Source of the DNA: Synechococcus sp. NOUM97013
Lineage (GTDB): Bacteria > Cyanobacteriota > Cyanobacteriia > PCC-6307 > Cyanobiaceae
Direction of reading: 5' to 3'
Assembly (NCBI RefSeq): GCF_014279815.1
Contig: NZ_CP047941.1
Location: 2,294,001-2,358,000, forward strand
Length of the DNA: 64,000 nucleotides
Part shown: positions 13,293 to 54,259 of the stretch, one piece after another
How the letters are laid out: each line of letters begins with the position of its first letter
Position numbering within the stretch: the first letter of the stretch is position 1
Position numbers and translations under genes: made by a program
Notes under the pieces: model-generated
The model's input: the letters and a program-made list of their open reading frames with translations, nothing else
Told to the model about the DNA's origin: nothing
Databases searched by the model: none

Positions 13293-13694
13293 TCAGACGG
13301 ACGCCGAACGGGAGGACAGCGCGATTAGTTCCACCTTGTATCCATCAGGGTCTTCCACGAACGCAATCACCGTGCTGCCGTGCTTCATCGGACCGGGCTC
13401 CCTCACCACCCGGCCTCCCTTGCCGGCGATGCCAGCACAGGTGGAATAGATGTCTTCCACCCCAAGGGCGATATGGCCATAACCATCGCCGAGCTCGTAG
13501 CTCTGCGTATCCCAGTTGTGGGTGAGCTCAAGCACGGTGTTGTCCTTTTCATCCCCATAGCCAACGAACGCCAGGGTGAAACGACCTGATGGGTAGTCCT
13601 TGCGGCGTAGCAACTGCATGCCCAGCACGTCTGTGTAAAACGCCAGAGAACGGTCCAGATCACCCACCCGGAGCATGGTGTGGAGCATGCGCAT
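13293..13694 (-). CDS. gloA: Lactoylglutathione lyase (glyoxalase I)
   Basis: The 133-residue protein has the paired beta-alpha-beta-beta-beta modules of glyoxalase [62 protein letters not shown] and [15 protein letters not shown]. Metal ligands expected at H5, E57, H75 and E123 or neighbouring positions are visible. It isomerises the methylglyoxal-glutathione adduct. This is notable because a methylglyoxal synthase domain is encoded at 39.3 kb. It ends immediately before clpB2, probably in one transcript. Confidence 0.93.
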
Positions 13695-36677: not shown

Positions 36678-37367
36678 CTAACCAGGCAACAACCCGCGTT
36701 GGATCAGTGGCTGCAGATCAACGATCCGGAACTGCCCGTTGGTTTCTATCACGGTGCCGCGGTTGCGCAGCTTGCTGAGCGTGCGAGACGCTGTTTCCCG
36801 CGCCAATCCAGCCAGCAAAGCAATTTCCCGTTGGGCCAGCAGTGGGATCTCCGCCTGAGGATTCTGATCGCGAGAACTTTTGCGAGCGAGGTAGGCCAAG
36901 GCATCCAGCAGGCGCGTGGTGGCATCGGCGCTCTGCAGCGCAAAGCGCTGATTGAGATCACGCAAACGCGAAGCCTCCAAGCGCGCCAAGGCAAGAGCGA
37001 ACGACGCCTGCTGACCGAGCAGAGCCACAAACGGCACCGAGTGCAACTTGATCAGGTGCAATGGCGTGAGCGCCACCACATCGGCCGAACGCGACGCACC
37101 ATCGAGAGCGGCCATCTCACCGAACACATCGCCTTGACCCAGCAACGACATGATCACTTCATCACCATCTGCGGTGTAAGTGCGCACCTTGGCCAGCCCC
37201 TCACGGATCAGGAACAGCGACTCACCCCAGTCCTGTTCCATCACGATCACCTGATCGACTTGATGGCTCGTCTCACGATGGCGATCCAGCAGCAGGCTGC
37301 GCTGTTCTTCAGCCAGCTCTGCGAACAGAGGCATGGCCACGAGATCCTCAGGCGTGAGCGCAGACAT
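36678..37367 (-). CDS. Crp/Fnr family transcription regulator
   Basis: The 229-residue protein has an N-terminal cNMP-binding fold (about 10-125) with a phosphate-cassette-like FGEMAALDGASRSADVV, a dimer helix and a C-terminal winged helix (about 165-220) with IALLAGLARETASRTLSKLRNRG as recognition region. The cassette (G-E-M-A, then R-S-A) looks competent for cyclic nucleotides. It may be a cAMP receptor of the cyclases encoded nearby, but other Crp-family types cannot be excluded. It is divergent from the cNMP-binding gene at 37540. Confidence 0.87.
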   Translation of the reverse strand: MSALTPEDLVAMPLFAELAEEQRSLLLDRHRETSHQVDQVIVMEQDWGESLFLIREGLAKVRTYTADGDEVIMSLLGQGDVFGEMAALDGASRSADVVALTPLHLIKLHSVPFVALLGQQASFALALARLEASRLRDLNQRFALQSADATTRLLDALAYLARKSSRDQNPQAEIPLLAQREIALLAGLARETASRTLSKLRNRGTVIETNGQFRIVDLQPLIQRGLLPG

Positions 37368-37539: not shown

Positions 37540-38115
37540 ATGACGAGCGACAACCCAAAGCTCAGCCAAATTCGTGACCGACTGCGGATGTTGGTGAACA
37601 CCCATCTCTCCACCGTCAGCCATGAAACGCTCATGGCTCCAGTGGGTGAGGTGCTGATCGAACAGGACAGTCCGGCCAGACGGGTGCTGCTGGTGCAAAC
37701 AGGGGAATTGACAGTGGAGCGCTGCGAAGCCGGTGGCAGCCCTCAGGTGATCGCCCGAATCGGCCCGAATGAACTCGTCGGAGAAATGGCGCTGATCGGT
37801 GATGAACACCACAGCGCAACCGTCAAAGTCAGCAGAGGACCCGCAGAAATCCTGGTGGTTCAGGCGGATGATCTGCTGCAGGCCGCGATCTATGACAGCG
37901 ACCTAGTGATGGAACTGTTGGCCTTGAGCAGCAACCGCTGCCGTCAAACCAACAGCCATCTGACACTGGTTCTGGAAGCCTTAGAGGCCTTGGACCGAGC
38001 CCATGACGCATCACTGGAACGCTGCTGCAGTGAACTAGAACGCTGCACTGATCCAGGACTCTTCAGCACGGCACAACGGTTGAGACGACTGGGGCAGGCC
38101 CAAAAAACGGCATGA
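37540..38115 (+). CDS. Stand-alone cyclic-nucleotide-binding domain protein
   Basis: The 191-residue protein has a single cNMP-binding domain (about 25-130) with RVLLVQTGELTVE and NELVGEMALIGDEHHSATVKV, where V-G-E-M-A and H-S-A-T stand for the phosphate cassette (the usual Arg is His). The C-terminal helical part (about 130-191) has no DNA-binding motif that I recognise. It could be a cytoplasmic receptor acting through protein contacts. Start ATG 37540 is inside a 172-base divergent region shared with the Crp-like gene. Confidence 0.78.
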   Translation: MTSDNPKLSQIRDRLRMLVNTHLSTVSHETLMAPVGEVLIEQDSPARRVLLVQTGELTVERCEAGGSPQVIARIGPNELVGEMALIGDEHHSATVKVSRGPAEILVVQADDLLQAAIYDSDLVMELLALSSNRCRQTNSHLTLVLEALEALDRAHDASLERCCSELERCTDPGLFSTAQRLRRLGQAQKTA

Positions 38116-38228: not shown

Positions 38229-38891
38229 ATGCAGCTCAAACTCCAGGAACGCCTGCAAAGCCTGAAGATGGTGGCCAGCCTGGCCACGTTTCTCAAAAAC
38301 CCTGGCTCGCTCGACAGCGTGTTTGCTGTCGCCAACAGCGTGAAGGACAGCCCACTGGCTGAGCAGATGCAGCGGCACCTGCTCGGGCACCCCCAGTTCG
38401 GTGCACTGGTGAAGGAAGGTTGGCGACCCAAGGCGATCGACCTGGGCGAACTGCAGAAACTTCCGGAAGGCACCCTCGGACGCTGCTACGCCGATCAGCT
38501 GATCAGCCAGGGCATCACACCGGACGCACTGATCGACCCGTCCCCCATCAGCAATGACGCTGAGTACATCACCCACAGGCTCCGGGAAACACACGACATC
38601 ATCCACGTGCTCACAGGCTTCGGGATCGACGGCGACAGCGAGCTCGGCTTGCAAGGTTTCAACCTTGCTCAGACACGATCCCCCTTGGCCGTAATGCTGA
38701 TTTTTGGCGGCATGTTGGCCGCGCTTCAGGACAACGAGCCACTGGCACCGATGCTGCGAGCCCTAGCACGAGGCTTTCAACTGGGCCTGGATGCTGATCT
38801 GGTGATCGCGTGCAAGCTTGAGGAAGGATGGAAGAGGCCTCTGCAGGACTGGCGCCAAGAGCTGAAACTTGCCGTGAACAGTGACCAGTAA
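38229..38891 (+). CDS. Coq4 family protein
   Basis: The 220-residue protein carries the full Coq4 zinc motif HDxxH-x11-E (H122, D123, H126, E138), preceded by EYITHRLRETHDIIHVLTG, and the segment CYADQLISQGITPD typical of the family. Coq4 acts in ubiquinone synthesis in other organisms. Cyanobacteria make plastoquinone, so the role here is open; a quinone- or lipid-linked step is the natural guess. It lies between two cNMP-binding genes on the same strand. Confidence 0.85.
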   Translation: MQLKLQERLQSLKMVASLATFLKNPGSLDSVFAVANSVKDSPLAEQMQRHLLGHPQFGALVKEGWRPKAIDLGELQKLPEGTLGRCYADQLISQGITPDALIDPSPISNDAEYITHRLRETHDIIHVLTGFGIDGDSELGLQGFNLAQTRSPLAVMLIFGGMLAALQDNEPLAPMLRALARGFQLGLDADLVIACKLEEGWKRPLQDWRQELKLAVNSDQ

Positions 38892-39257: not shown

Positions 39258-40151
39258 ATGGACCGGAACGAGCTGATCTCAACGCTCCAGGATGAAGGGA
39301 ACCTGAAGCATTCCTTCAGCGCCGAAGACATCGCCGTCCTGGCGCATCACATGTCGATCAAATCATTCGACGACAATGCGATTTTGATGCACAAAGACGA
39401 GCCCGCTGACTGCATGGCATTTCTGATCAGTGGCAGGGTTCAAATCATTGAAGACGAAAGACAGATTGCAATCCTGACAACTGGGGACTGCTTTGGCGAA
39501 AGCATGTTCTCTGAAGAGGCAACGCGGGTGGCCAGCGTTCAGGCCCTAGAGGCCACAAAAGTCGGCTTGTTCAGCATCGACGACTTCCATGCATTGTTGG
39601 AAACCAATCAGAGACTGGCACTGCAATTCAGAGAAATCTTCAAAGCTGTCGGACGGGCCCGTGCCGAGCAGCATGCCGCCGAAACCTACACAGACAAGCG
39701 CAAATACTTGGCCCTCATTGCCCACAACAACATGAAAGAAAGCCTGATGGAGTTCTGCAGCATGCACACCAACAAGCTGGAACAATTCCCTCTGATTGCG
39801 ACAGGAACGACCGGCAGCATGCTGTTCAAAAAAACAGGCCTATGCCTCAGCCGTAAAGTCGCTTCAGGTCCCTTGGGTGGGGACCAGGCTGTTGGGACTC
39901 TGATTTCCACACAAAACATCATCGGCGTCATCTTCTTCCGAGATCCACTCTCGTCACACCCGCACCACGCCGACATCGAAGCCCTTGGACGACTCTGCGA
40001 CGTCTACCAAGTTCCTTTTGCCACGAACCCTCAAAGCGGAGAGGCGATTCTTGATTATCTTCTCTCTGGAAAGGCTGATCACGACCCCCTTCCCAATCGC
40101 GTGCTAGAGGCCTACGTCAAAGGACAAAAAAAGGTCGTCGAAGCCGGGTGA
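39258..40151 (+). CDS. Fusion of cyclic-nucleotide-binding domain and methylglyoxal synthase
   Basis: The 297-residue protein has a cNMP-binding domain (about 20-128) with FGESMFSEEATRVASV as cassette (E81, R90), and a methylglyoxal synthase domain (about 148-270). The latter keeps H156 and K160 (LIAHNNMK), the phosphate loop ATGTTG, catalytic D209 (SGPLGGDQ), D229, H236 and D239 (FFRDPLSSHPHHAD). The residue after H156, normally Asp, is Asn. Methylglyoxal synthase makes methylglyoxal from dihydroxyacetone phosphate, bypassing lower glycolysis. I infer control by cAMP or cGMP. ATG 39258 is chosen; a TTG seven codons earlier is possible. Confidence 0.88.
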   Translation: MDRNELISTLQDEGNLKHSFSAEDIAVLAHHMSIKSFDDNAILMHKDEPADCMAFLISGRVQIIEDERQIAILTTGDCFGESMFSEEATRVASVQALEATKVGLFSIDDFHALLETNQRLALQFREIFKAVGRARAEQHAAETYTDKRKYLALIAHNNMKESLMEFCSMHTNKLEQFPLIATGTTGSMLFKKTGLCLSRKVASGPLGGDQAVGTLISTQNIIGVIFFRDPLSSHPHHADIEALGRLCDVYQVPFATNPQSGEAILDYLLSGKADHDPLPNRVLEAYVKGQKKVVEAG

Positions 40152-40164
40152 AGGTTGAACATAA

Positions 40165-41928
40165 TCAAGGCTGGGACCGAAGAGCAATCAAGCCAAAAAC
40201 AGTGATCGGCTCTGGCCAACCCTTAACGGAATGATCGCCCAATTCCTCTACAACAACATCGTCATCTAGCAAGTCGCGAACATCCGCACTCATCAAGATC
40301 GGATGTTCGGGAAATTGTCGTGTCAACGATTCCAGTCGACTCGCAAGATTCACCGTGGCCCCGATCACGGTGTACTCCAAACGATCGCTTGAACCAAGGT
40401 TGCCGGCAATCACTTCGCCACAATGAATGCCGATGCCCTGGCGTAACGGAGCTTGACCCTCCATCTCCAGCTCTCGGTTGAGTGCATCCAAGTTGGCCTG
40501 CATGGCCAGGGCGGCGCGCACAGCAGCCAATGCTTCAGCACGTTCTCCACGATGCACAGGAACACCGAACTCGGCCATCAAGGCATCACCAATGAATTTG
40601 TCCAGCAGGCCTTGCTCATGAAGCACAGGTGCAGCAATCGCTTCGAAATAGCGATTCAACAAACGGAAAAGACCCTCTGCATCCATCACATTGCTGCGGG
40701 CCGTGAATCCGACCAAATCGGTAAACAGCACCACACATTGCTCACGCCTTCCGCCCAAGCGCATCCAGCTCTCCTGACCTGAGCGCAACATGTCGCGCAG
40801 GAGGTTTGGAGACACCCTCCTGGACAGAACAGAGTGAAGAAATCGACGCTGAGCACTCTCCTTCTGGAACAGATCACCAGACCGCACGGCGCCAGCCACC
40901 AATGGCATCAGCGTTAAGGCCGCTCCAGGCAACCACAACCCGCAAAGCCAAGCCAAAGTCGTCAGCCCCATCGCAAAACACCCCAGAAGCAGTGCGGAAA
41001 TCGCGGAGCCGGAAGCAGTCGAAGGCGCGGCAAGACGCCAATTGCACAGCAACAACCAGCTGATCACGATCAACGCCAGCGGGAAGGAATCCAAACTTCG
41101 GAAACCACGTCCGCTGCGCAGACCTGAAATCGCTGATAACAGCACCTCAGATCCGCTTTGCTGTCCAAATGGCGTCTCCAACTGATCGCCAAGGGACGGA
41201 GCGGTCGAACCGATGATGACGATCTTGTTTCGCCAAGTGTCTTCAGGGAGCGAACTGACTGCCCAGGCAGGAATCACTGGAATCGATTCACTAGGGCCAA
41301 GAAAATCGATCCCATCGTCTCCCTTTGACGGAGAGACACCCGCTCCTAAGTGAGCCAATGAGGCAGGGTGGGGAGTCGGGAATGGCGCGAGCAACAACTG
41401 CAATTGCTTTGTGCCCGGAACCGACTGAACAACGCCGAAGTCGTCCATCGAGAATGCGGACAGACCACTTGGATACGAAGCATCCCAAGGACGACGCAGT
41501 TCGACCTGCTCGAAATCCTGTGCTTGCTGACGCACCAAGGACGCACTGAGCACAACCTTGTCCTGCCAGGGTTTCAACAGCGATTGGAACGCCATGTCAT
41601 CGGCTGAACCCAAACGACTGGGGCCGGCATGGACAATGTTGAACACAACACGCGCAGCCCCAAGGCGAAGAACCTCACGTGCCAATGCTGCCTGCGTTGC
41701 TCGCGGCCAAGGCCAAGGTCCAAATTCAGTGAGCTGAGGGTCGAGTGACGCCTCATCAATCCCCAGCAAAACAACATCTTCAGCCAGAGGAATTGGCCCA
41801 CGCACCTGAAAAAGAAGCTGCCGACTGGCTGCATCCAGGCGCGTCAACCACGGCAAGAGTGCAAGTGGGGCAAGGAGAGATGCGCGCCATGCAATGGCGA
41901 TCAAACGCTGACGGATCAAGCCTTTCAA
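40165..41928 (-). CDS. CHASE2-domain class III nucleotide cyclase
   Basis: The 587-residue protein has a membrane segment (about 14-30), an extracytoplasmic CHASE2 sensor (about 35-275, with VVLLGIDEASLD and KIVIIGSTAPSLGD), three membrane segments (about 283-350) and a class III cyclase domain (about 395-587). The two metal aspartates D404 (FTDLVGFT) and D448 (KFIGDALMAEFG), K444, N527 and R531 are present. The adenine-contacting Asp is replaced by Ala524 (VIGATVN). The start is TTG in a TTGA overlap with the FecR-domain gene, so the two are coupled. Adenylate cyclase is likely, but substrate choice is uncertain. Confidence 0.88.
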   Translation of the reverse strand: MKGLIRQRLIAIAWRASLLAPLALLPWLTRLDAASRQLLFQVRGPIPLAEDVVLLGIDEASLDPQLTEFGPWPWPRATQAALAREVLRLGAARVVFNIVHAGPSRLGSADDMAFQSLLKPWQDKVVLSASLVRQQAQDFEQVELRRPWDASYPSGLSAFSMDDFGVVQSVPGTKQLQLLLAPFPTPHPASLAHLGAGVSPSKGDDGIDFLGPSESIPVIPAWAVSSLPEDTWRNKIVIIGSTAPSLGDQLETPFGQQSGSEVLLSAISGLRSGRGFRSLDSFPLALIVISWLLLCNWRLAAPSTASGSAISALLLGCFAMGLTTLAWLCGLWLPGAALTLMPLVAGAVRSGDLFQKESAQRRFLHSVLSRRVSPNLLRDMLRSGQESWMRLGGRREQCVVLFTDLVGFTARSNVMDAEGLFRLLNRYFEAIAAPVLHEQGLLDKFIGDALMAEFGVPVHRGERAEALAAVRAALAMQANLDALNRELEMEGQAPLRQGIGIHCGEVIAGNLGSSDRLEYTVIGATVNLASRLESLTRQFPEHPILMSADVRDLLDDDVVVEELGDHSVKGWPEPITVFGLIALRSQP

Positions 41929-42734
41929 GGCGAAGGGGCCATGACGCCCAATTCACGCTCGATCACGGGCAAGGTGTCGAGAGGGGAAGAAAAGCCGTTG
42001 ATCAGACGACTCTTCTGAAGACGGCGCTCGATGTCTGCCTCGGGAATCACGACGGGCGGGGCCCAGATCGCATTACGCGCAGCATCCAGGGAAAGATCCG
42101 TAATGGAACCAACAAACTCGGAATCCAACAACAGTTGCTGACCACTGTTCAACGTAAAACGCTGTCCACTACTGGTCGTGACAGTGACCTTGCCTTCCCA
42201 ACTGAAAATCTTGAATTGGTTATCGGTGTACTGAATGAAAACGGTGGTGCCTTGGATCGAGGCTGTGGCCAGACGTGTCTTGATCGTGAACGGGGCACGA
42301 TTTTGCGTGCCGGGGTTAATCCATCCAATGATGGCTCCCTTGATCAGCTCAACACCGGAATTGCCAAGACGTAGCTGAGCATCACCTCCCATCCTGAATT
42401 GACGCCCGGTCCCAAGCATCACCTGCATTCGCCCAGGCTTCGTCGTTCGCAACAGCGCATCAGTACTGAGCACTTGCCCGGAAATGGCATCAACCTCCGA
42501 CATACCGGGAAGTCGCACAAAAGCAGGTCCATTGGGAACCTCAACAATGCGAGGCTGAATGGCTCTTGACGGTAGACCCGAGAAAACGATGCCAGCAATG
42601 GCGAGGGATAGAGCCTGAACGCGAAACGACAACCCCAACTGAACGTTGCAGCTTTGGAGGATCCTGACAGGAGTCAGACAGAGCGGCAGCGAGGGATACA
42701 AGGAGGTCAACGAACCGAAACGCGTTGCAAACAC
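41925..42734 (-). CDS. Secreted FecR-domain protein
   Basis: The 269-residue frame has a signal-peptide-like segment only after residue 33 (ALSLAIAGIVFSGLPSRA), so the true start may be a TTG near 42638 rather than GTG 42734. The mature protein has a FecR domain (about 100-210) with GRQFRMGGDAQLRLG, IKTRLATASIQGTTVFIQY and FSWEGKVTVTTSSGQ. FecR-like domains are periplasmic signal or scaffold modules. Coupling to the CHASE2 cyclase gene suggests that it feeds the sensor domain. Confidence 0.78.
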   Translation of the reverse strand: MFATRFGSLTSLYPSLPLCLTPVRILQSCNVQLGLSFRVQALSLAIAGIVFSGLPSRAIQPRIVEVPNGPAFVRLPGMSEVDAISGQVLSTDALLRTTKPGRMQVMLGTGRQFRMGGDAQLRLGNSGVELIKGAIIGWINPGTQNRAPFTIKTRLATASIQGTTVFIQYTDNQFKIFSWEGKVTVTTSSGQRFTLNSGQQLLLDSEFVGSITDLSLDAARNAIWAPPVVIPEADIERRLQKSRLINGFSSPLDTLPVIERELGVMAPSP

Positions 42735-42778
42735 AAGCAGGCATCGTCAGATTGGGGCAATGCGTCACCTCGATACAG

Positions 42779-44092
42779 ATGGCATACGAAGAAGTGCTCA
42801 ACAACCCCGCTGGGTTCAATTTCGAGATTGAACAGTTGGGGGAAGCGCAGTTTGCCAATCCAAGCAGCAAAGAGGTCTTCGTGGAGGAAGGAGAAAGAAT
42901 CATCTTCTCAAGCCAACTGAAGAACCTGAAGCGACAACTGGAGACATGCGAAGAGATTCCGACATTTGAAAAAGCAGGAGCCCGTCGAAAGATCTTCCAC
43001 AATCCCGCTCAAACAAAAGCAGCGATCATCACCTGCGGCGGCTTGTGCCCCGGCTTAAACAACGTGATCAAAGGATTAGTGAATGTCCTTGAGCAAGATT
43101 ATGGAGTCGAAGAAATCCATGGCATCAGATATGGATACAAGGGACTGACTGAGGCATCTGAACACGATCCAATTCGATTAAATTCAAAATTTGTCGACCA
43201 GATTCACAAGCAAGGTGGCACTATTCTTGGATCATCAAGGGGGAATCAAGACCCTGAAAAAATGGTTGACACGCTTCAAGCCAAAGGGATCAATTTACTC
43301 TTTTGCATCGGTGGAGACGGCACCTTAAAAGGGGCTCGGGCGATCGCAGAGGCAGCAACACAACGGAAGGCCAATATCAGCGTCGTCGGCGTGCCAAAAA
43401 CAATCGACAATGATCTTGGCTTTGTTGAAAAAACCTTCGGCTTTGAGACCTCTGTTCAGGTCGCATCAGAGATCATCACATCAGCCCACCACGAAGCGGA
43501 GGGAGCGGAGAATGGCATTGGCATCGTGAAATTGATGGGTCGAGATTCAGGATTCATCACAGCAACAGCATCACTGGCCAATTCAGTGGTTGACGTGTGC
43601 TTAATCCCTGAAACACCATTCAAAATCGGCGGGACCGATGGGATCTGCAGAGATTTGGAGCAAAAGCTGGATCGAAACAATCATGCAGTCATCGTCGTCG
43701 CAGAGGGAGCAGGGCAAGAGCTCTTCCAAAACAGCGAGAAGAAACAAGACGCATCCGGAAATATTTTAAAAGACGATATCGGCGAGCTACTAAAAAATGA
43801 AATTACAACTCACTTCAAAAGCAAGGGCATTCCGATCAGCATCAAATACCTCGACCCCAGCTACCACATTAGAAGCGTTGCGGCGAACGCTTCAGATGCC
43901 GTGTTATGCCATCTTCTCGCAGAATATGCTGTTCATGCCGGAATGAGTGGAAAAACCAACCTGGTCATTGGATACTGGAACAACTTCTTTACACATGTGC
44001 CTATCAAGCTCGCCACAAAAGAACGAAGAATGGTCGACCTGGACGGCGCCTTATGGAGAGGGGTCATCAGCGCGACACGACAAGACGAGTGA
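42779..44092 (+). CDS. 6-phosphofructokinase
   Basis: The 437-residue enzyme has the PFK motifs TCGGLCPGLNNVIKG, GTILGSSRGNQ, CIGGDGTLKGA (178-182 GGDGT, the ATP rather than pyrophosphate form), VPKTIDNDLGF with catalytic D210, and GRDSGFITATASL. A ~75-residue N-terminal extension resembles that of the longer, plant-like group. It phosphorylates fructose 6-phosphate. Start ATG 42779 is preferred; 42725 would reach into the divergent FecR-gene region. Codon usage is more AT-rich than in the housekeeping genes. Confidence 0.93.
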   Translation: MAYEEVLNNPAGFNFEIEQLGEAQFANPSSKEVFVEEGERIIFSSQLKNLKRQLETCEEIPTFEKAGARRKIFHNPAQTKAAIITCGGLCPGLNNVIKGLVNVLEQDYGVEEIHGIRYGYKGLTEASEHDPIRLNSKFVDQIHKQGGTILGSSRGNQDPEKMVDTLQAKGINLLFCIGGDGTLKGARAIAEAATQRKANISVVGVPKTIDNDLGFVEKTFGFETSVQVASEIITSAHHEAEGAENGIGIVKLMGRDSGFITATASLANSVVDVCLIPETPFKIGGTDGICRDLEQKLDRNNHAVIVVAEGAGQELFQNSEKKQDASGNILKDDIGELLKNEITTHFKSKGIPISIKYLDPSYHIRSVAANASDAVLCHLLAEYAVHAGMSGKTNLVIGYWNNFFTHVPIKLATKERRMVDLDGALWRGVISATRQDE

Positions 44093-44410
44093 GCAAAACA
44101 GGCTTACTTAGAAATTGATCAACAGACCAACGATGAGTCAATATATAAAAGTTCTTGAGGAGAGTGCAACAAGGGCATCAATCAAACCAATCAACCCAAT
44201 GATCGCGATAATGGCATTAGTCCAGAATCAAATAAAAGGAATGACTTGCAGAAAGTGTCAGCTCAGGCAATGAGCCATAAGCCAAAGGCGAATTCATTTA
44301 CATGACTGAGTCAACTACAATGGCACGATAAAAAGCATTGCTCATCTTGGCAGCGTCCCTCCAACAGGAATGAAGTCGAGGCTGCAGGGCTCATACTCAA
44401 TTCAGTCGTC
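44093..44410. other. Intergenic stretch between phosphofructokinase and the TpsB gene
   Basis: About 318 AT-rich bases without a recognisable gene or RNA. A frame of 18 codons with ATG at 44370 runs into the TpsB start region and could be an upstream reading frame, but it has no other support. Confidence 0.4.
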
Positions 44411-46066
44411 ATGTTTCCTCTCTTAGCCCAACTAGTCGCACCTCCGATCCAACCCGGACCAGCACGCATACCTGAGCGACAGAGTCCTGCTGCAAACGAT
44501 GACGCCATTCAGTTAGAGGTGGAGGATCAAAAAGAAGAACAGAATGAAAGCGAAATCAATGAGCAAAGCGATGGACAATCGATCGAATTAGAGGGTTCAT
44601 CCCCATACAATGCTGAAAGAACAAAGCAAATCCTGAGAAACTGCGAATTATCGGTCGACACCAGCCTCGAAAACAGCTGCGTCAATCAACTCAATGCTCA
44701 GTTGCAAATAGATGGATACATCAATACACGCGTCGTTGCCGAGGAAATCGATGGACAGGTCAAGTTGATCATCATTCCTGGTAAATTAGTTGAAATCAAT
44801 GTCAACTCTAAAAATGAAGAGCTTGCCAGAGAAATCAAAGATAAATTAGCCCCACTTCTTGATCAACCCTTTAACATCATCCAAATCAAAAATGCACTGC
44901 TGAATCTGGAGCGCTTGGGAATCGTCAGCAGCCTCTCAGGAAGTATTGGGAAACTAGGCAGCAATCCAACGAAAGCAACACTAAACATCACAGCGGAAGT
45001 CGCAGCAAAACCATGGCGAGGGCTGTCGTCCGTTCGGAATGATGGAAATGCGGGGAGCGGCGAGTGGAGAGGCTTAGCTGTCCTGCAAAAATCAGATCTC
45101 TTCGCTCGAGGCGATCAATTTCAATTTTATGGAGAATTAAATATTGACCGAGACCCAGAACTTGGTGCTGGCATTGGCTCCATCAGCTATACCTACCCGT
45201 TATCCCGAACATGGGGAGTGACAGGATCTTTTGGCGCGAGCAGGCGCTATCTGGTTGAATATCCAAAACCATTCCGCGATTTAAGCTTTAGACAATATCA
45301 GGGATTAATCCAGACCGATTGGACCTTTTTAGAAACTGAATCAACGAACACCTATATTTTTCTCGGAGTAAGTGCAAACCACAACAATAGTTACTACAAA
45401 AATGAGACGTTCCCAGTTATCGCCGGTGGAGGAATTGATGGAGACCTAACCAGTGGATATGCTCGCATCGGTCTTGGGCATCAAGGTGCAAGAAATTCAC
45501 TGTCTTGGACGGGACAGATCTATGCACTACAGGGGATCAATTCATTCAGCAGCCCCGATGAACTGAATAACCTCAAAACACTTGGAATTCAACCAAGTAG
45601 TGCACAAGCAGTGGGCGCTTATGCAACAGGGCTCTGGGCCATCGATCGGAACTTGATTGCAAAGGCTGTTGCTGGAGGACAATATGCATTCAACCCTTTA
45701 ACCAGCAGTATGGGATTTGGCGTCGGCAGCGACAACGGCTTAAGAGGGTTGCCCGGAACCTTGATCAGTGGTGACAACGGTTGGATCAGCAACTTAGAGT
45801 TGGAATGGTCATTCCTAAAATTAAAAAATAACCAGTTCAAACTTGTCCCTTTCGGAGGGGCGGGAGGAATTACGACAACACGTCTGGGAGAAACATTCAG
45901 CGACACAATTGGTTCCTATGGAATGCTATTGAGATGGCAACATAAAAATCAACTCGTTGTTGATCTTGGTTGGGCGAGTCAATTCAATACGGATGACAAT
46001 GAAGGACTGTGGAACGACTGGATTATTGGTGACGGAATTTACTCAAAGGTGACATTCCAGTTTTAA
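44411..46066 (+). CDS. Two-partner secretion transporter TpsB (FhaC/ShlB type), pair 1
   Basis: The 551-residue protein has an acidic linker (about 25-70), POTRA domains (about 70-205, with LQIDGYINTRVVAEE and ALLNLERLGIVSSLSGSIG) and a C-terminal 16-strand barrel ending in Phe. Barrel landmarks include WRGLSSVRNDGNAGSGEWRG, GSISYTYPLSRTWGVTGSF, GLRGLPGTLISGDNGW and WNDWIIGDG. It exports a TpsA exoprotein across the outer membrane. The N-terminus MFPLLAQLVAPPIQPGPAR lacks a charged n-region. It is tail-to-tail with the CHAT exoprotein gene, 10 bases apart. Confidence 0.88.
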   Translation: MFPLLAQLVAPPIQPGPARIPERQSPAANDDAIQLEVEDQKEEQNESEINEQSDGQSIELEGSSPYNAERTKQILRNCELSVDTSLENSCVNQLNAQLQIDGYINTRVVAEEIDGQVKLIIIPGKLVEINVNSKNEELAREIKDKLAPLLDQPFNIIQIKNALLNLERLGIVSSLSGSIGKLGSNPTKATLNITAEVAAKPWRGLSSVRNDGNAGSGEWRGLAVLQKSDLFARGDQFQFYGELNIDRDPELGAGIGSISYTYPLSRTWGVTGSFGASRRYLVEYPKPFRDLSFRQYQGLIQTDWTFLETESTNTYIFLGVSANHNNSYYKNETFPVIAGGGIDGDLTSGYARIGLGHQGARNSLSWTGQIYALQGINSFSSPDELNNLKTLGIQPSSAQAVGAYATGLWAIDRNLIAKAVAGGQYAFNPLTSSMGFGVGSDNGLRGLPGTLISGDNGWISNLELEWSFLKLKNNQFKLVPFGGAGGITTTRLGETFSDTIGSYGMLLRWQHKNQLVVDLGWASQFNTDDNEGLWNDWIIGDGIYSKVTFQF

Positions 46067-46076
46067 TAGTCTGCTA

Positions 46077-49000
46077 TTACCAGGGCGTACCAAGCAGAAT
46101 AAATCCAGACCAAAAGAATGGATGTCGAAAGTCGCTTGGATAATTATATTTCTGCGATGCAGACAGACCCGACAAAAGGACATCACCGGCTTCGAAAACA
46201 ACGTCTGAACCTTCAATCTTGATTTTTCCCGAAGCGAAGTCGCGCTGGGTCTGCGTCAACGCGGTCGATTTAGACACTCCACGACTCAAATAGCGATAAA
46301 ACTGTGAGAAGAATGCTGAAGTAGCCAAATCATCCACATACCAAAGGGAACCAATGGCACTCTTGGAACCAGCTTGAAGAGCCAAGCCAGCAAGACCCAT
46401 TTCACTATCACTGTCGCCTAGAGCACTACGACAAGCGCTGAGAACAAACAAGTTGATAGGATTCAATTCTCGATTACGACGTATCGACTTGAAGGCTTCA
46501 AAAGAAATTGAGCCATCAATTGTATAAATCATTGATTGATCAGGACTTCCTCCTTTGAAATCAGCATGGGTTGCCAAATGAATCAGAGACTCATTCGATG
46601 AACGTAAATCTGAAACAGCCCTCGATGAAGTGAACTGTTCTCCAAGCACAGATTGACCACCATAATATTGACCAATATTTTCAACTTCTTGATTCACATA
46701 TGGAAGCGGGGATAATTCCGAAAACTGGGTGGAGCCCATGATCAGAATTCGATCCAGTTCAGAATTTGCCAGTGGTATGGATAAATCAGTGAGTGATAGC
46801 GAAGGTGTAAACGAGAATGAAAGGTTTTCAACAGTGTATTGTCCTTGTCGGGCAAGCGCAGAGAAAGGAATTGCTTGTAGACCACGGTCAGCGGAAACTA
46901 AGACAGTTGTGATTTTTTCGGTGGTCATCACATCCTGAAGCGGCTCAAGAAACAATGAATACAGCCGTGATGCTTCTGATGTTTGAAGAGCAGGATCTAA
47001 TGAACGTTGACTGGTAATTTTTCCATAAAAACCACGCAGAAGATTTGAAAATTCTGCGACAGGAAGCTCTGTACGTCGACCAGTCACGGTTCCATCTGAT
47101 GTGATCAAAGTAAGATCAACAAACCCCTTCGCAGAATCACCCACACCAAGATCAGAGTTTTGGGTAAATGAAATATTTAAAAAAGCAGGGTTAAACTCTG
47201 ACTCGGATGAGCTTGAGCTGATGAAAGCACTGTTACTAGAGAGCTCACTGGCAATGATCGATGTCGATTGGTCCAGTGCAGAAATACTTAGGGACTGATA
47301 AACCTGACGTGCATCATTCAAACTTTGGGAAATGCGTGCCGGTGTCAACTCGCTGGCAGGAATAGGGCTGATGTCATCAAGACCGAGAGCCGAAAGCACC
47401 TCTACCGTATTGGAATCAATCGAATCCCTCAGATTTGAAGCAACAACATTTGCATCAATGGTTGAAATCTGGAAGGAAGGAGCTGATGAGTCTCCGGGCT
47501 CACTGGAGGTTGATTCACCCGATTGTGAATCAGAAGCGTCTTCATTCGTCGCCGTAGTGGATGCGTTTTCATTGCCACCTTCATCAGTAGAACTCTCAGC
47601 ATTGGATTCAGATTCGGAATCCGAACTGGTCTCGGCAGCTGATTCAGAATTCGATCCTGTTGCACTCGTGCTGTCTCCATCCGACTCAGAGGAAGAGGAA
47701 GATGAAGATGAAGATGAAGATCCATACAATGACGATTGTTGTGACGAAGAAGATGTGTCTGAAGAGGAAGTCTCTGGGCCAAGAGAGCCTGAATCTTGCG
47801 TCGAACCACCTAGTGAAATATCAACTAAACCACTCTCACTCTCATTTGTAGACGCAATGATTAAATCATTAGCACTATCCACCACCAGACCTTCGTTGTC
47901 AGACATGGTCGTGGAGTCAATCAGCGCATCATTACCAACATCAATCACCACAAGCTCATTACCACTCACAGAAGATTCTGATATCGCAACATCAAAATCA
48001 GCAACAAAGGCAAGCTCTTGATTATTAATAAACTCGGAGTTAAAAACATCAATATTACCCGTCAGCGCCGCAGCCTCAAACACACTCTCATCAACATTCG
48101 ATCCCAAAACAACAACATCACCCTCAGAAGAAATAGCGAGAACGTCGCTCCCGATCACTTCAGAGCCTGCAATCGCTGCATCACCCGTTTCAGAGCCCAC
48201 ATCGGCCACGGTATTCACAACGCTCGAATCAACGATGCCTGAATCGCCATCGGTGGAAACAACAACAACATCAGTATCAACGACATCAGAATCAACGATG
48301 GCAGCATCACCAGATTCAGAGACAACATCCAAAACATTGCTGCTTGAATTTGAATCAATAATTAATGCATCACCGTCGGTAGATCGCACGGTGGCGACAT
48401 TATTTAAAAGGTCTGAGCTGACAATCTTTGCGTCTCCTTGCGGAGCACGAATCAGCAGATCATTGCCTTCAACCAAAGAGTTGAAAATCACAGCATCGCC
48501 CTGCAGAGCTTGAAACACGAGATCATTTCCAGCCACGGAAGAACTCAAAAAAGTGGCATCAGCAAAGGCAGTGACGTCAAAGTAAGCATTGTTAGACAAC
48601 GCTAAATTGTCAAACGTCACATTACCCTCAATTGACTCCAAGTAAGGATAGAGATTATCCAAGAAATCAGAATTAGTAATTAAAAGGTCAGACGTGGACG
48701 AGATCAATGTGAAGGGACCATTGAGGTCAAAACTTGAATCATCAATATCAATCATCCCAACAGCTTGAATCGTGAAGAAAGGCAGTGCATCAACAACTTC
48801 AAAGCTGGACAGAAATTGCGAGCTTGTGTACGGCAAATTCCCAATCAGATCGGAACCAAAAAATACAAAATCGGCACCACTATCAATGGTCACACTCGAA
48901 TTGCCGCTAATACTTGAATCAACAATATCGATATCACCAAATTCTGTGTAGAGCGAGATCAACGAATTATCGTCAAGTATTGAGTCAGCAATTGAAAGCG

Positions 49001-49694
49001 TGCCACCAACATCAAGAGTAGACGATGCATTGAGGACCGTATTCGAGACTGTTAAATCAGAATTTGCATGCACATACAACGAGCCATCAACAGAGAGCGT
49101 GATGCCACTAATGGTGATCGGGGAATTGGACGCAACAGTTGACAAGCCTGGATTTGTACGGCTAAGCACTGGTGAACCAGTCAACAATTCAACTTCACTT
49201 TTAGTTGAATTAACCGAAAACTGTCCTACACCGATCGGGAATGCGGAGAGATTAGCAAGCGTCAGATCAGTAACATTGGAGAAGGAAGCACCTGTTGATA
49301 AAGAAACGCCATCAGGGGAAACAATGAACAAGTTGGCATTCGAGTCAAGACTCAAGGGAACACTAAGATTGAAGCCGTTGGATGACGAAGCCACTCCAAG
49401 AATGACGTTGCTCTGGGAGTCTGTTTCAATTGTCACTCCAGATATGGAAGACTCGGAAGTTCTATTTGCATCAAACAAAGTGAAACGATGAAATTTATTC
49501 GAGCCAGCATCGGTTCCACCACTAATGGCACAAACACCCGAAACGCAGGACTGTGTACCAGACCCGCCATTAATGGATGTCTCAAACCGACCTGACGTTG
49601 CAATCTGCGACCTTGCTGGCTGGGCTGCGGAAGCAATCAAAGCAAAGGGCAGCCCAAGAGACAAAACAATCCGCTTACAAGGAAAGCCAGTCAT
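46077..49694 (-). CDS. TPS exoprotein (TpsA) with C-terminal CHAT protease domain, pair 1
   Basis: The 1205-residue protein has a signal peptide (1-30), a filamentous-haemagglutinin-type TPS domain (about 31-190, FIVSPDGVSL and VILGVASSS) and a long run of ~20-residue beta-helix repeats of the form GDA-x-I-x-x-S (about 210-640). A Ser/Glu/Asp/Thr linker follows (about 650-760), then a CHAT caspase-like domain (about 930-1205). The catalytic pair is H1043 (LATHADF) and C1088 (VLSACRS). The C-terminus HPFFWSGFILLG is typical of CHAT proteins. I infer an exported, self-contained protease. The gene is AT-rich compared with the second copy. Confidence 0.88.
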   Translation of the reverse strand: MTGFPCKRIVLSLGLPFALIASAAQPARSQIATSGRFETSINGGSGTQSCVSGVCAISGGTDAGSNKFHRFTLFDANRTSESSISGVTIETDSQSNVILGVASSSNGFNLSVPLSLDSNANLFIVSPDGVSLSTGASFSNVTDLTLANLSAFPIGVGQFSVNSTKSEVELLTGSPVLSRTNPGLSTVASNSPITISGITLSVDGSLYVHANSDLTVSNTVLNASSTLDVGGTLSIADSILDDNSLISLYTEFGDIDIVDSSISGNSSVTIDSGADFVFFGSDLIGNLPYTSSQFLSSFEVVDALPFFTIQAVGMIDIDDSSFDLNGPFTLISSTSDLLITNSDFLDNLYPYLESIEGNVTFDNLALSNNAYFDVTAFADATFLSSSVAGNDLVFQALQGDAVIFNSLVEGNDLLIRAPQGDAKIVSSDLLNNVATVRSTDGDALIIDSNSSSNVLDVVSESGDAAIVDSDVVDTDVVVVSTDGDSGIVDSSVVNTVADVGSETGDAAIAGSEVIGSDVLAISSEGDVVVLGSNVDESVFEAAALTGNIDVFNSEFINNQELAFVADFDVAISESSVSGNELVVIDVGNDALIDSTTMSDNEGLVVDSANDLIIASTNESESGLVDISLGGSTQDSGSLGPETSSSDTSSSSQQSSLYGSSSSSSSSSSSESDGDSTSATGSNSESAAETSSDSESESNAESSTDEGGNENASTTATNEDASDSQSGESTSSEPGDSSAPSFQISTIDANVVASNLRDSIDSNTVEVLSALGLDDISPIPASELTPARISQSLNDARQVYQSLSISALDQSTSIIASELSSNSAFISSSSSESEFNPAFLNISFTQNSDLGVGDSAKGFVDLTLITSDGTVTGRRTELPVAEFSNLLRGFYGKITSQRSLDPALQTSEASRLYSLFLEPLQDVMTTEKITTVLVSADRGLQAIPFSALARQGQYTVENLSFSFTPSLSLTDLSIPLANSELDRILIMGSTQFSELSPLPYVNQEVENIGQYYGGQSVLGEQFTSSRAVSDLRSSNESLIHLATHADFKGGSPDQSMIYTIDGSISFEAFKSIRRNRELNPINLFVLSACRSALGDSDSEMGLAGLALQAGSKSAIGSLWYVDDLATSAFFSQFYRYLSRGVSKSTALTQTQRDFASGKIKIEGSDVVFEAGDVLLSGLSASQKYNYPSDFRHPFFWSGFILLGTPW

Positions 49695-50083
49695 TTGCCT
49701 GAGAGAAAAAGAATCCGCTCAAAAAGAGCTCATAATTCCAATTATACACCAATAGTCAAAATAATCACAATATAATGATTTAAATGCTCAATCTCCGAGG
49801 GAGACACACAACAAACGCAACGACACGAGGCAAATACCAGGAAAATTCGAAACTCAATCAAGGCTGAGTTCAGCCTTGCTCAATAACCGCAAATCAGAGG
49901 CAAAGCCACACGACGAGTCGCGAACCAGACAGTCCCTGTGCACGCCTACTGCAGAAAAACGCATGAAGGGTGACGAAGGGGTACTGGAACTTCCAACGTT
50001 GCAGTTCGACCACAGAATGCAGAACAGCCACACATAAGGAGCCAACCTGGGACCAATCAGGCGCATCCAAGGTTGAACCGGCG
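49695..50083. other. Divergent intergenic region between TpsA1 and the second cyclase
   Basis: About 390 bases. A TATAAT reads on the minus strand at 49746-49741, 47 bases before the TpsA1 start. A perfect 9-bp inverted repeat lies at 49859-49878. No small gene stands out. Confidence 0.5.
49859..49878. repeat. Perfect short palindrome, possible operator
   Basis: CAAGGCTGA and TCAGCCTTG are separated by two bases. There is no T run on either side, so a protein-binding site is more likely than a terminator. Confidence 0.4.
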
Positions 50084-51952
50084 ATGAATCGCTTCCGCCA
50101 ACTGCTGCAATCCACCGGCCCCTATCTCGCCGCCTTGGGAATCTTGGTGCTTCTGCGCAGCACGGGCTTGGCCCAAACTCTTGATTTGGTGATCTATGAC
50201 CTGATCACAAGTGAGCGATCCAAGGATTCAAGGCAAGACCAACCGATCACTGTGGTGGGCATTGAAGAAAGCGACATCCAACGCTTTGGATGGCCCATTG
50301 ATGACAGCATCTTTTGCGAAGCCTTTGACGCGCTCAATGCCAGCGGCGTCGCCGCCATCGGCTTCGACATTTACCGAGACCAGGGTGTAGGAGAACAGCA
50401 GCAATGCCTGCGTGACCGCTTCCGTGATGAGCCAACCCTGGTGGCCATTTTCAACGTAGCTGCCGGCATTGCAGCTGTTCCCGGCACACCGGTCGAACGC
50501 CAGTCGTACAACGACCTCACCCTGGATGCTGATGGAGTGGTGCGTCGAGATCTGGTGCATGTCACAGGACAGGACGAAGCAACGGTGGCCTTTCCATTGC
50601 GCGTGCTGGAAGTCGCCACCGGCGATCGATCCTTACGGGACGCCTTGGATGCAGGTGCGGATCAAGGCCCATGGTTGTCGGCAAATAGTGGTGGATATCA
50701 CAACGAAATTGATGCGGGGCTCGGGATGCAGCGGTTGATGCGTTACCGCGAACCGGGAAGCTTCGCGACCTACACCTTGGCGGAGATCATCGACGGTGAG
50801 GTGCCGGAAGCGATGCTTCGGGACCACATCGTGCTGATCGGCAGCACAGCACCCTCTCTTCGTGATGTCTTCGAGATGCCACACACGCGGTTTAACCGGG
50901 GCGAGCGGCTTTTCACAATTTCGGGTGTGGAAGTGCATGCCAACCGGCTGGCCACCTTGATGGACGAGCGCAACGGAAGCTTTCAAGCGGGTTGGTTGAT
51001 GCCTGGCTGGGGCAATCTGCTGATGGTGATCGGCTTTGCCAGCACCGGACTGCTGCTCGGAGAGCGGATCCCAAAGCAACGAGTCAGCATTCTTGTTGTT
51101 GGCCTCGTGGCCAGCGGAACCGCTGCTGGGCTCTCAGCACTGCTCTGGAATCACATCTGGATCGGCATGGCAATGCCGATCACAGGTCTACTCAGTTTCA
51201 GCGGTGCTGCCTGGCTGCGCCGTGGCATGGAAAGCCAACAACACTCCCAACAAATTCAACAATTACTCGGCCAAACAACATCGCCGGCGGTTGCGCAACA
51301 ACTCTGGGAACAACGCGACTCCTTGCTCAGCAACGGACGTTTCCAAGGACAACAGCTACCGATCACTTCACTGTTCACAGATATCGCTTCATTCACCACT
51401 GTGTCCGAAAGCATGAGTCCGCCGGAGTTAATGGACTGGTTGAACCGCAGCATGGAAATCTGCGTGCCCGCCATCACCCAAAGGGACGGCATGGTGAACA
51501 AATTCACCGGCGATGGGATGTTGGCCGTCTTCGGGGTGCCGTTACCAGGGAATCCATCGGCAGAAGCTCAGGCGGCGATTGAAGCCGCATTTGAAATCAA
51601 AGAGGGACTGGAGAATCTCAACGTGAAGCTCCAGGCCGAAGGAACACCCACCATGCGCGTGCGCATGGGCATTCACTCCGGTGAGGCACTGGTGGGTTCG
51701 ATGGGAAGCACTGAACGGATCGAATACGCAGTGATCGGAGACGCTGTGAACTGCGCATCAAGACTAGAAAGCTATGACAAAAATCGCCATAAAGGAGTAC
51801 TGCGCGTTCTGATCTCCAGCACCACATTGGAACTCCTCCCAACCGAATTCCGCCAATCCTTAAACTTGGACTATTGGGGCCCTATTCAGGTCAAAGGACG
51901 CGAAGAGCCGTTAGAAGTCAGCCAGTTGAAGTTCGACAATTTGAACGATTAA
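50084..51952 (+). CDS. CHASE2-domain adenylate/guanylate cyclase, second copy
   Basis: The 622-residue protein has the same plan as the cyclase at 40.2 kb: an N-terminal membrane segment (about 13-31), a CHASE2 sensor (about 35-300, ITVVGIEESDIQRFGWP and HIVLIGSTAPSLRD), three membrane segments (about 305-375) and a cyclase domain (about 425-622). All class III residues are present: D432, D477, K473, D553 (VIGDAVN), N556 and R560, the K/D pair favouring ATP. The ATG at 50084 is preferred; an earlier start would add 38 residues of unlikely sequence. It is convergent with the first DUF928 gene. Confidence 0.92.
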   Translation: MNRFRQLLQSTGPYLAALGILVLLRSTGLAQTLDLVIYDLITSERSKDSRQDQPITVVGIEESDIQRFGWPIDDSIFCEAFDALNASGVAAIGFDIYRDQGVGEQQQCLRDRFRDEPTLVAIFNVAAGIAAVPGTPVERQSYNDLTLDADGVVRRDLVHVTGQDEATVAFPLRVLEVATGDRSLRDALDAGADQGPWLSANSGGYHNEIDAGLGMQRLMRYREPGSFATYTLAEIIDGEVPEAMLRDHIVLIGSTAPSLRDVFEMPHTRFNRGERLFTISGVEVHANRLATLMDERNGSFQAGWLMPGWGNLLMVIGFASTGLLLGERIPKQRVSILVVGLVASGTAAGLSALLWNHIWIGMAMPITGLLSFSGAAWLRRGMESQQHSQQIQQLLGQTTSPAVAQQLWEQRDSLLSNGRFQGQQLPITSLFTDIASFTTVSESMSPPELMDWLNRSMEICVPAITQRDGMVNKFTGDGMLAVFGVPLPGNPSAEAQAAIEAAFEIKEGLENLNVKLQAEGTPTMRVRMGIHSGEALVGSMGSTERIEYAVIGDAVNCASRLESYDKNRHKGVLRVLISSTTLELLPTEFRQSLNLDYWGPIQVKGREEPLEVSQLKFDNLND

Positions 51953-52762: not shown

Positions 52763-54259
52763 TCATCCTGAAGAGAACAACCTTGCGAAGGTCTTGCGCA
52801 TGCGTTCAACCAAATCAAGCTCATAGGTTTCGGTCTGATCCGCAGTGAATTCGCAACGGCGTGCCTCCCGATGCGCCATGAAGGCGGCGAAAGCTTCCAT
52901 GGCATCACCGTTCTTCAGGAACTGATCATTGATCGTGCGCTGACTGATTTTCTGAACCATCACATGCCCCTTCGCCAACACAGATGCCTTTCGGGGCTCG
53001 TCAGTCAAAGCAGCCATTTCACCAAAAACATCACCCTGCGATAACTCAGCCACCTCAATCTGGTCCTTGGAACCCATCACCGCATTCACATAAACAGAGC
53101 ATGTCCCTTCAAGCACGACATACATCGAACCTCCCTCTTCCCCTTCGCGAACAATCGCCTCATCGTCACCGAACGACAAAACAGGGTCGTGAACAACAAT
53201 GTCTCTGATTTGAGCATCGTTCAGCGACGCCAACAGAGGCTCACGACGCAGAACAGCAAAGCTTTCATCTTGCAATTGCTGTTCAAGCTCCCCATCTCTC
53301 CGTTCGGTATCAGCAAATGTTCTGACATCCTCGACCGGATAGGGGAATGAGTAACCCGCACGATGCACCGCATACCAAGCATCAGCAAAAAGACTTGACT
53401 TAATAACAGCCCTTTGCATGTAGTCTTCGATGAAAAACCATAATCGATAATTAATCGATGAATCACTAAATTCTTCGACTAAAATATGTGCGTCATTCGC
53501 ATCGACGACACCAGGATGCTGATCTAAAACAGTGGATAAAATTGCAATAATCTTCCCAGGCGGCGCTTCGTAGGGAAGGCCCATAACAATATCGAGTTGA
53601 TAACGACGCGCAGTGGGCCTGGAAAAATTAATCACTTTTCCAGTGTCAATCACAGAGTTAGGAAGAATGATCATTCGGTCTCGCGCGTTGTCATAGAGGT
53701 AGGCACTATTCCATGACACAGTCTCAACACGGCCAACACAACCATCAATTTCCACCCAATCACCAACTGAAAACTGCCGCTCAACCTGGAACGTGAGCGC
53801 AGAAGAAATATTGCTGATTTGCGAAGCAGTGCCAGGACCCACCACAAACGCAAGGCCCCCCAGTACGGCGGCCGAACCCAGGGTGGTCAACAGCCCCTGA
53901 CTCTGAAGCTGGACCGCAACGATCAACATCGTGGCAGCAACCAACAGCAGATCCTTGAGAATCCTGGGCGGCGCAACGCGTCGACGACCCAACCTGGCCA
54001 AAACAAGCCAGAGCACATCCAGAAAAACCTCAACAAGAGCGACATACAATGCGCCGCTCTCAACCAGTCGAAGCCAAATCAGTGCTTCACCCTGCTGCTC
54101 AAACAACAGAAGCAACCGCGTCAAAATTGCAGCAGTCAGTGACACCCGGAAAAAGAGCATTCCGGGGATCCAACGGCTGTACTTAAACGACCGGGACTGA
54201 CGAACACGGCCCAAGACAAACGTCAGCAGCCAAAGCAGTACCAACCAGAACAACGACAT
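52763..54259 (-). CDS. MscS-type channel with C-terminal cyclic-nucleotide-binding domain
   Basis: The 498-residue protein has four to five membrane segments (about 1-150), an MscS pore helix and beta domain (LGSAAVLGGLAFVVGPGTASQISNI-type sequence, FSVGDWVEIDGCVGRVETVSWNSAYL, ILPNSVI) and a cNMP-binding domain (about 345-460) with FGEMAALTDEPRKASVLA, including the cassette Arg. Such channels are cyclic-nucleotide-gated members of the MscS family. It sits between the DUF3307 gene (28 bases upstream) and DUF928 copy 1 and probably shares their transcript. Confidence 0.93.
   Translation of the reverse strand: MSLFWLVLLWLLTFVLGRVRQSRSFKYSRWIPGMLFFRVSLTAAILTRLLLLFEQQGEALIWLRLVESGALYVALVEVFLDVLWLVLARLGRRRVAPPRILKDLLLVAATMLIVAVQLQSQGLLTTLGSAAVLGGLAFVVGPGTASQISNISSALTFQVERQFSVGDWVEIDGCVGRVETVSWNSAYLYDNARDRMIILPNSVIDTGKVINFSRPTARRYQLDIVMGLPYEAPPGKIIAILSTVLDQHPGVVDANDAHILVEEFSDSSINYRLWFFIEDYMQRAVIKSSLFADAWYAVHRAGYSFPYPVEDVRTFADTERRDGELEQQLQDESFAVLRREPLLASLNDAQIRDIVVHDPVLSFGDDEAIVREGEEGGSMYVVLEGTCSVYVNAVMGSKDQIEVAELSQGDVFGEMAALTDEPRKASVLAKGHVMVQKISQRTINDQFLKNGDAMEAFAAFMAHREARRCEFTADQTETYELDLVERMRKTFARLFSSG

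Follow-up and report, generated by a model that had tools for sequence, protein, structure and literature searches.

A gene in the window, by which we mean the whole 64,000-nucleotide stretch of Synechococcus sp. NOUM97013 DNA that was analysed, encodes a protein of 297 amino acids in which a cyclic-nucleotide-binding (cNMP) domain, a helix and a methylglyoxal synthase (MGS) domain follow one another (39258-40151 with the stop codon, + strand). This fusion is the sole MgsA in the genome. Judged from its sequence, the best explanation, to which we give slightly better than an even chance, is that it is a real methylglyoxal synthase which cAMP controls directly and allosterically.

Domain architecture and distribution

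The reading frame is open from 39237 or 39258 to 40151 on the + strand, and translation probably starts at the ATG at 39258 because homologues align there. The gene and its parts are as follows.

39258-40151, + strand: cNMP-binding/methylglyoxal synthase fusion gene (Pfam, NCBIfam, homologue alignment)
39360-39608, + strand: cyclic-nucleotide-binding domain, residues about 35-117 (Pfam PF00027, 1.3e-17; predicted-structure matches)
39492-39536, + strand: phosphate-binding cassette FGESMFSEEATRVAS with Glu81 and Arg90 (alignment)
39609-39683, + strand: linker helix from sensor to enzyme, residues 118-142 (predicted structure)
39705-40082, + strand: methylglyoxal synthase domain, residues 150-275 (NF003559, 4.9e-42; Foldseek 2x8w, 4.8e-13; active site)

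A first-pass annotation made from the sequence had read a full cNMP domain ahead of a methylglyoxal synthase domain, and Pfam and NCBIfam agree, both profiles being matched whole. The cNMP_binding profile scored 64 bits against a curated cut-off of 27.5, the Pfam MGS profile matched C-terminal to it (1.5e-10), and the NCBIfam methylglyoxal synthase model NF003559 gave 143.1 bits, above its curated cut-off of 84. TIGR00160, with 140.0 bits, fell about 7 bits short of its cut-off of 146.9. Among solved structures the nearest by sequence is the Thermus MgsA (2.8e-36); other MgsA proteins come next, and cNMP domains from kinases, channels and CRP come after them. The AlphaFold2 model has a mean pLDDT of 84 and a pTM of 0.48; each domain is predicted to be confidently folded, and their relative arrangement is of low confidence. 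The MGS part of the model matched MgsA 2x8w in Foldseek with a TM-score of 0.89 normalised by target length, and the sensor part matched the cAMP-bound PKA-R, CRP and HCN domains.

The family was sampled in 251 picocyanobacterial genomes, in GTDB representatives and in 386 Cyanobacteriota, and the search for further cNMP-MgsA fusions that the first-pass annotation had recommended found the same architecture in several phyla. Thirteen of the 251 picocyanobacterial genomes carry the fusion, divergent or broken copies included, and the weaker matches in the remaining ones are separate cNMP or MGS proteins. The scan of GTDB representatives gave 18 loci, in Synechococcus single cells, Trichodesmium, Verrucomicrobiota, Gemmatimonadota, Latescibacterota, a Myxococcota/Deltaproteobacteria MAG and a proteobacterial MAG. 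Full-length relatives that are 45-89% identical occur in other picocyanobacteria and in these same groups, and the scattered relatives span at least five phyla. One contig labelled 'Crocinitomicaceae' (L038) looks like a mis-binned piece of Synechococcus. Since the architecture recurs in many independent genomes, an assembly error is ruled out as its source; a chance or misannotated reading frame is ruled out by the conservation across several phyla together with purifying selection (dN/dS of 0.05-0.08 for the whole fusion in the pairs where it could be computed).

In a tree of the MGS domain computed without L078, a very long branch, and L016, a branch supported at 98/95 separates the 26 core fusions from the rest. 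A first tree had placed the fusions in two parts; this placement was due to L078 and was rejected when a single group was obtained without the two sequences. Both are cNMP-MGS proteins themselves. L078 (1510-2298, - strand), like G485 and G402, comes from other cyanobacteria in the family of Trichodesmium, has an MGS active site that is wholly destroyed and is possibly a pure sensor, and L016 is a distant relative whose active site is ruined. Frameshifted fusions were found at L103, L100, L039 and L043, the frameshift lying in the MGS domain in G249 and at the cNMP cassette in G112; those of L039 and L043, which are single-cell genomes, may be sequencing errors.

The usual MGS of cyanobacteria, in the 386 Cyanobacteriota sampled, is a different fusion in which the MGS domain is joined to a lipid kinase. 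In the picocyanobacterial MGS-lipid kinases L017-L030 the MGS part has lost nearly all active-site residues (His19, TGTTG and SGP are gone and GGD is kept), and by its sequence it is a pseudo-enzyme domain on the kinase. Many viral contigs (L123-L156), very large ones of more than 300 kb included, carry MgsA-related MGS regions without the fusion. Because the viral collection yielded stand-alone MGS regions only and no fusion, a phage origin of the fusion was rejected. Next to the fusion in a deltaproteobacterial MAG lies a gene (L050, 2188-5004, - strand) with two cNMP-binding stretches and a class V aminotransferase, an apparent further fusion of cNMP domain and enzyme.

The synthase active site

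Numbered after E. coli MgsA, the MGS domain of the window protein retains His19, Lys23, TGTTG at 45-49, SGP at 65-67, Asp71, Asp91, His98, Asp101 and Arg107, and all of these are invariant across the core fusions. The first-pass annotation had named the catalytic Asp, the phosphate loop and the His as kept, and this holds for every active-site position that was checked. It had also noticed Asn in place of Asp after the first His. This residue (Asn157 of the window protein) occupies position 20, where MgsA has a conserved Asp, and it is Asn in all core fusions; the change is thus a signature of the family, and local decay was rejected as its cause. Asp20 was mutated in early work on MgsA and is reportedly not the catalytic base. 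An MGS-lipid kinase with an otherwise complete site, L067, also has Asn20. The roles of H19, K23, TGTTG, S65-P67, D71 and H98 in MgsA are summarised in PMC7843640, and Asp20 is absent from the substrate-contacting residues named there.

These residues bear on whether the fusion is an enzyme at all. The synthase domain might be weak or inactive and serve as a sensor of dihydroxyacetone phosphate or phosphate tied to cyclic-nucleotide signalling, as the decayed MGS parts of its relatives could suggest. The family-wide Asp20 to Asn change, the ruined sites of the distant cNMP-MGS proteins L078 and L016 and the dead MGS parts of the L017-L030 kinases are consistent with such a role, but a non-catalytic domain would have no need of Asp71, His98, Asp101 and the other catalytic and phosphate-binding residues that are invariant in the core family, and Asn20 is shared by the otherwise canonical L067. 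We consider this explanation improbable, and a dead active site was rejected for the core family. Synthase activity of the fusion is therefore likely as far as its residues can tell, and the Asp20 to Asn change may lower or alter it.

The sensor site and the genes around the fusion

The cassette of the window protein, F-G-E-S-M-F-S-E-E-A-T-R-V-A, was described as apparently intact in the first-pass annotation, and it does contain both the ribose-binding Glu (Glu81) and the phosphate-binding Arg (Arg90). Among the 25 aligned members the Glu is kept in 22 and the Arg in 17, and both are kept in every non-cyanobacterial member. The Arg is lost in the other eight, several picocyanobacteria among them: G141, the closest relative (89% identical), has Gln in its place, His or Ser stands there in several more, and Glu81 is also altered in L035, L036 and L012. 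With the Arg gone from about one third of the aligned members, gating by cyclic nucleotides is weakened as a universal property, and it is probably not family-wide.

The main rival to cAMP control is that the sensor is vestigial: the synthase would be active, and constitutive or controlled by phosphate like E. coli MgsA, and its cNMP domain, having lost the ability to sense cyclic nucleotides or never had it in this lineage, would contribute only to assembly or stability. The losses at the cassette argue for it, as do the mean majority conservation of 0.50 for the cNMP domain versus 0.79 for the MGS domain and the frameshifts of G112 and L039, which fall in the cNMP part and leave the MGS frame open. 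On the other hand, Glu81 and Arg90 are intact in the window protein and in all non-cyanobacterial members, the cNMP part is under purifying selection (dN/dS of 0.12 against G141), and there are cyclases next door. We regard a vestigial sensor as unlikely, though it is the least unlikely of the alternatives to direct control by cAMP.

The genes of the window that concern the cyclic nucleotide and glycolysis are the following.

36678-37367, - strand: Crp-family regulator, conserved neighbour (Pfam cNMP_binding and HTH_Crp_2, synteny)
37540-38115, + strand: small cNMP-binding protein, conserved neighbour (Pfam PF00027, 4.3e-15; synteny)
40165-41928, - strand: CHASE2-class III nucleotidyl cyclase (Pfam CHASE2, 4.7e-26; Guanylate_cyc, 8.7e-22)
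42725-44092, + strand: 6-phosphofructokinase (NF005301, 1.4e-184)
49970-51952, + strand: second CHASE2-class III cyclase (synteny)
52766-54259, - strand: MscS channel with a C-terminal cNMP domain (adjoins the fusion in L035, L036, L039 and L043)

Only two class III cyclases are encoded in the genome, a single contig of 2.55 Mb, and the window contains both of these CHASE2 proteins. The genome encodes ten cNMP proteins, and four of them, the Crp regulator, the small cNMP protein, the fusion and the MscS-cNMP channel, lie within 22 kb. The nearer cyclase is convergent with the fusion, tail to tail, with 13 bp between the stop codons; since convergent genes are no operon, the link between the two is one of neighbourhood only. 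A convergent cyclase was also found in L034, L097, L098 and L104, L035, L036, L039 and L043 have a relative of the second cyclase no more than 5 kb from the fusion, and a cyclase adjoins even the very divergent fusion L015/L104. In all, a cyclase occurs within 10 kb of the fusion at 12 of the 18 picocyanobacterial loci, the window included. At a density of two cyclases in 2.5 Mb, 1.6% per locus would be expected by chance, and an exact p-value for the 12 loci is not usable because the loci are not independent. In the 251-genome family sample a cyclase is present in 11 of the 13 fusion carriers versus 96 of the 238 non-carriers. Across carrier genomes 22 of 24 have a class III cyclase, the exceptions being G075, where the cassette Arg is His, and G249, with its fusion frameshifted in the MGS part. 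Loss of the cassette Arg together with the neighbouring cyclase followed no clean pattern; in G141, L035 and L036 the Arg is lost and a cyclase is near. Fusions outside the cyanobacteria, many of them on short contigs, showed no adjoining cyclase.

Whether the ligand would be cAMP was judged from the neighbouring cyclase and from the cassette. Inspected by eye, the translation of the cyclase has a Lys/Thr pair that we take to be that of class IIIb adenylate cyclases, and for this reason cAMP is more likely than cGMP. The sensor could instead respond to cGMP or another small molecule, the neighbouring cyclase not being the source. Such domains are known to bind either nucleotide, and the best solved matches to this one by sequence are those of apicomplexan cGMP-dependent kinases; against this stand the Lys/Thr pair and the residue after the cassette Arg, which is Val, whereas Thr or Ser is typical of cGMP sites. 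A ligand other than cAMP is the least probable of the alternatives we weighed.

The phosphofructokinase noted at 42.8 kb in the first-pass annotation is borne out by its NCBIfam match. It was found in 4 of the 251 picocyanobacterial genomes, all of them fusion carriers and always adjoining the fusion (Fisher 4e-6, a statistic that ignores kinship), and the match in G141 is only a remnant of 88 residues. A phosphofructokinase that is 67% identical also adjoins the fusion in the Gemmatimonadota MAG L041. This co-occurrence ties the fusion to upper glycolysis, from which dihydroxyacetone phosphate would come. The glyoxalase I pointed out in the same annotation is present by sequence (13293-13694, - strand), but it lies 26 kb away beside enolase and was rejected as a linked partner.

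Over the phosphofructokinase and a two-partner-secretion-like pair (42000-50000) the GC content is 44-50%, versus 56-62% before, which suggests an acquired segment. A Coq4-like protein is encoded at 38229-38891 (+ strand), and one is near the fusion also in L034, L095 and L096; cyanobacteria make plastoquinone.

Proposed regulation and known systems

Returning to control by cAMP as the preferred explanation, we infer for the fusion the catalysis, the binding of cAMP, the coupling of the two, its sign and its physiology. On some cue the CHASE2-adenylate cyclase beside the fusion would make cAMP, perhaps together with the second cyclase 10 kb further on, and this cAMP would be bound by Glu81 and Arg90 of the N-terminal cNMP domain. 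Helix 118-142 would then move and change the activity of the MGS hexamer, and the synthase thus released to act would convert dihydroxyacetone phosphate to methylglyoxal and phosphate, the methylglyoxal being removed through glyoxalase. With the adjacent phosphofructokinase this would make an exit from upper glycolysis that is controlled by a second messenger and returns phosphate. The convergent cyclase 13 bp away and the rare phosphofructokinase that travels with the fusion support such a cNMP-controlled glycolytic side-exit. The gating of the glycolytic bypass by cAMP or cGMP that the first-pass annotation had proposed is in this way partly supported.

Both the parts and the principle of a cNMP-gated enzyme are known. 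The mycobacterial Pat (Mt-Pat, Rv0998/MSMEG_5458) has an N-terminal cNMP domain on an enzyme that is activated by cAMP (PMC8556138), and in Bd1971, a cAMP-sensing EAL phosphodiesterase of Bdellovibrio which is also among the PDB sequence matches of the fusion, a cNMP domain gates the enzyme (PMC6717892). Three marks of an enzyme of this type were found for the fusion as well: a cNMP domain above cut-off together with a catalytic domain, the cassette Glu and Arg, and a cyclase in the genome. The catalytic domains are unrelated, however, that of Pat being a GNAT protein acetyltransferase and no lyase of central metabolism, and Bd1971 degrades c-di-GMP. By analogy with Mt-Pat and Bd1971, activation by cAMP is more likely than inhibition.

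With the single-domain MgsA of E. coli (1b93), Thermus (2x8w/2xw6) and B. subtilis (6f2c) the fusion shares the fold and all catalytic and phosphate-binding residues tested, and it differs from them by the cNMP domain in front, Asn20, a one-residue insertion before the SGP loop and an added C-terminal helix. The B. subtilis MgsA is also under signal-dependent control, through Crh, to go by the title of Dickmanns 2018 as cited in PMC7843640; control there appears to be exerted by a separate phosphocarrier protein and not by a fused second-messenger domain. Synechocystis sll0036, a reported methylglyoxal synthase (PMC11897720), would by its N-terminal sequence be of the MGS-lipid kinase type. 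Such proteins resemble the fusion in being multi-domain methylglyoxal synthases of cyanobacteria, but their MGS domain is N-terminal to a DAGK/YegS kinase, they have no cNMP domain and they form a separate clade (97/94). A literature search that covered few subscription papers found no paper in which MgsA and a cyclic-nucleotide domain are linked. The combination is probably listed in domain-architecture databases; in the literature searched, it and its target are undescribed.

In the species examined so far, phosphate controls methylglyoxal synthase, and this valve is a dangerous one; methylglyoxal is toxic. Bacterial cAMP is mostly thought to work through transcription factors of the Crp type, and a central-carbon enzyme gated by cAMP would therefore be unusual. 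The fusion and its adjoining cyclase suggest that a second messenger directly switches the methylglyoxal side-exit. Tentatively, and at somewhat less than even chances, we propose that marine cyanobacteria and members of other phyla have a signalling-metabolic module in which an adjacent cyclase would supply cAMP that acts directly on the enzyme and not through transcription, opening a methylglyoxal exit that a co-inherited phosphofructokinase would supply in some strains. If this is true, a second messenger would switch the methylglyoxal valve directly, through a cNMP domain that belongs to the same polypeptide, and the CHASE2 cyclases of marine picocyanobacteria would have a concrete target.
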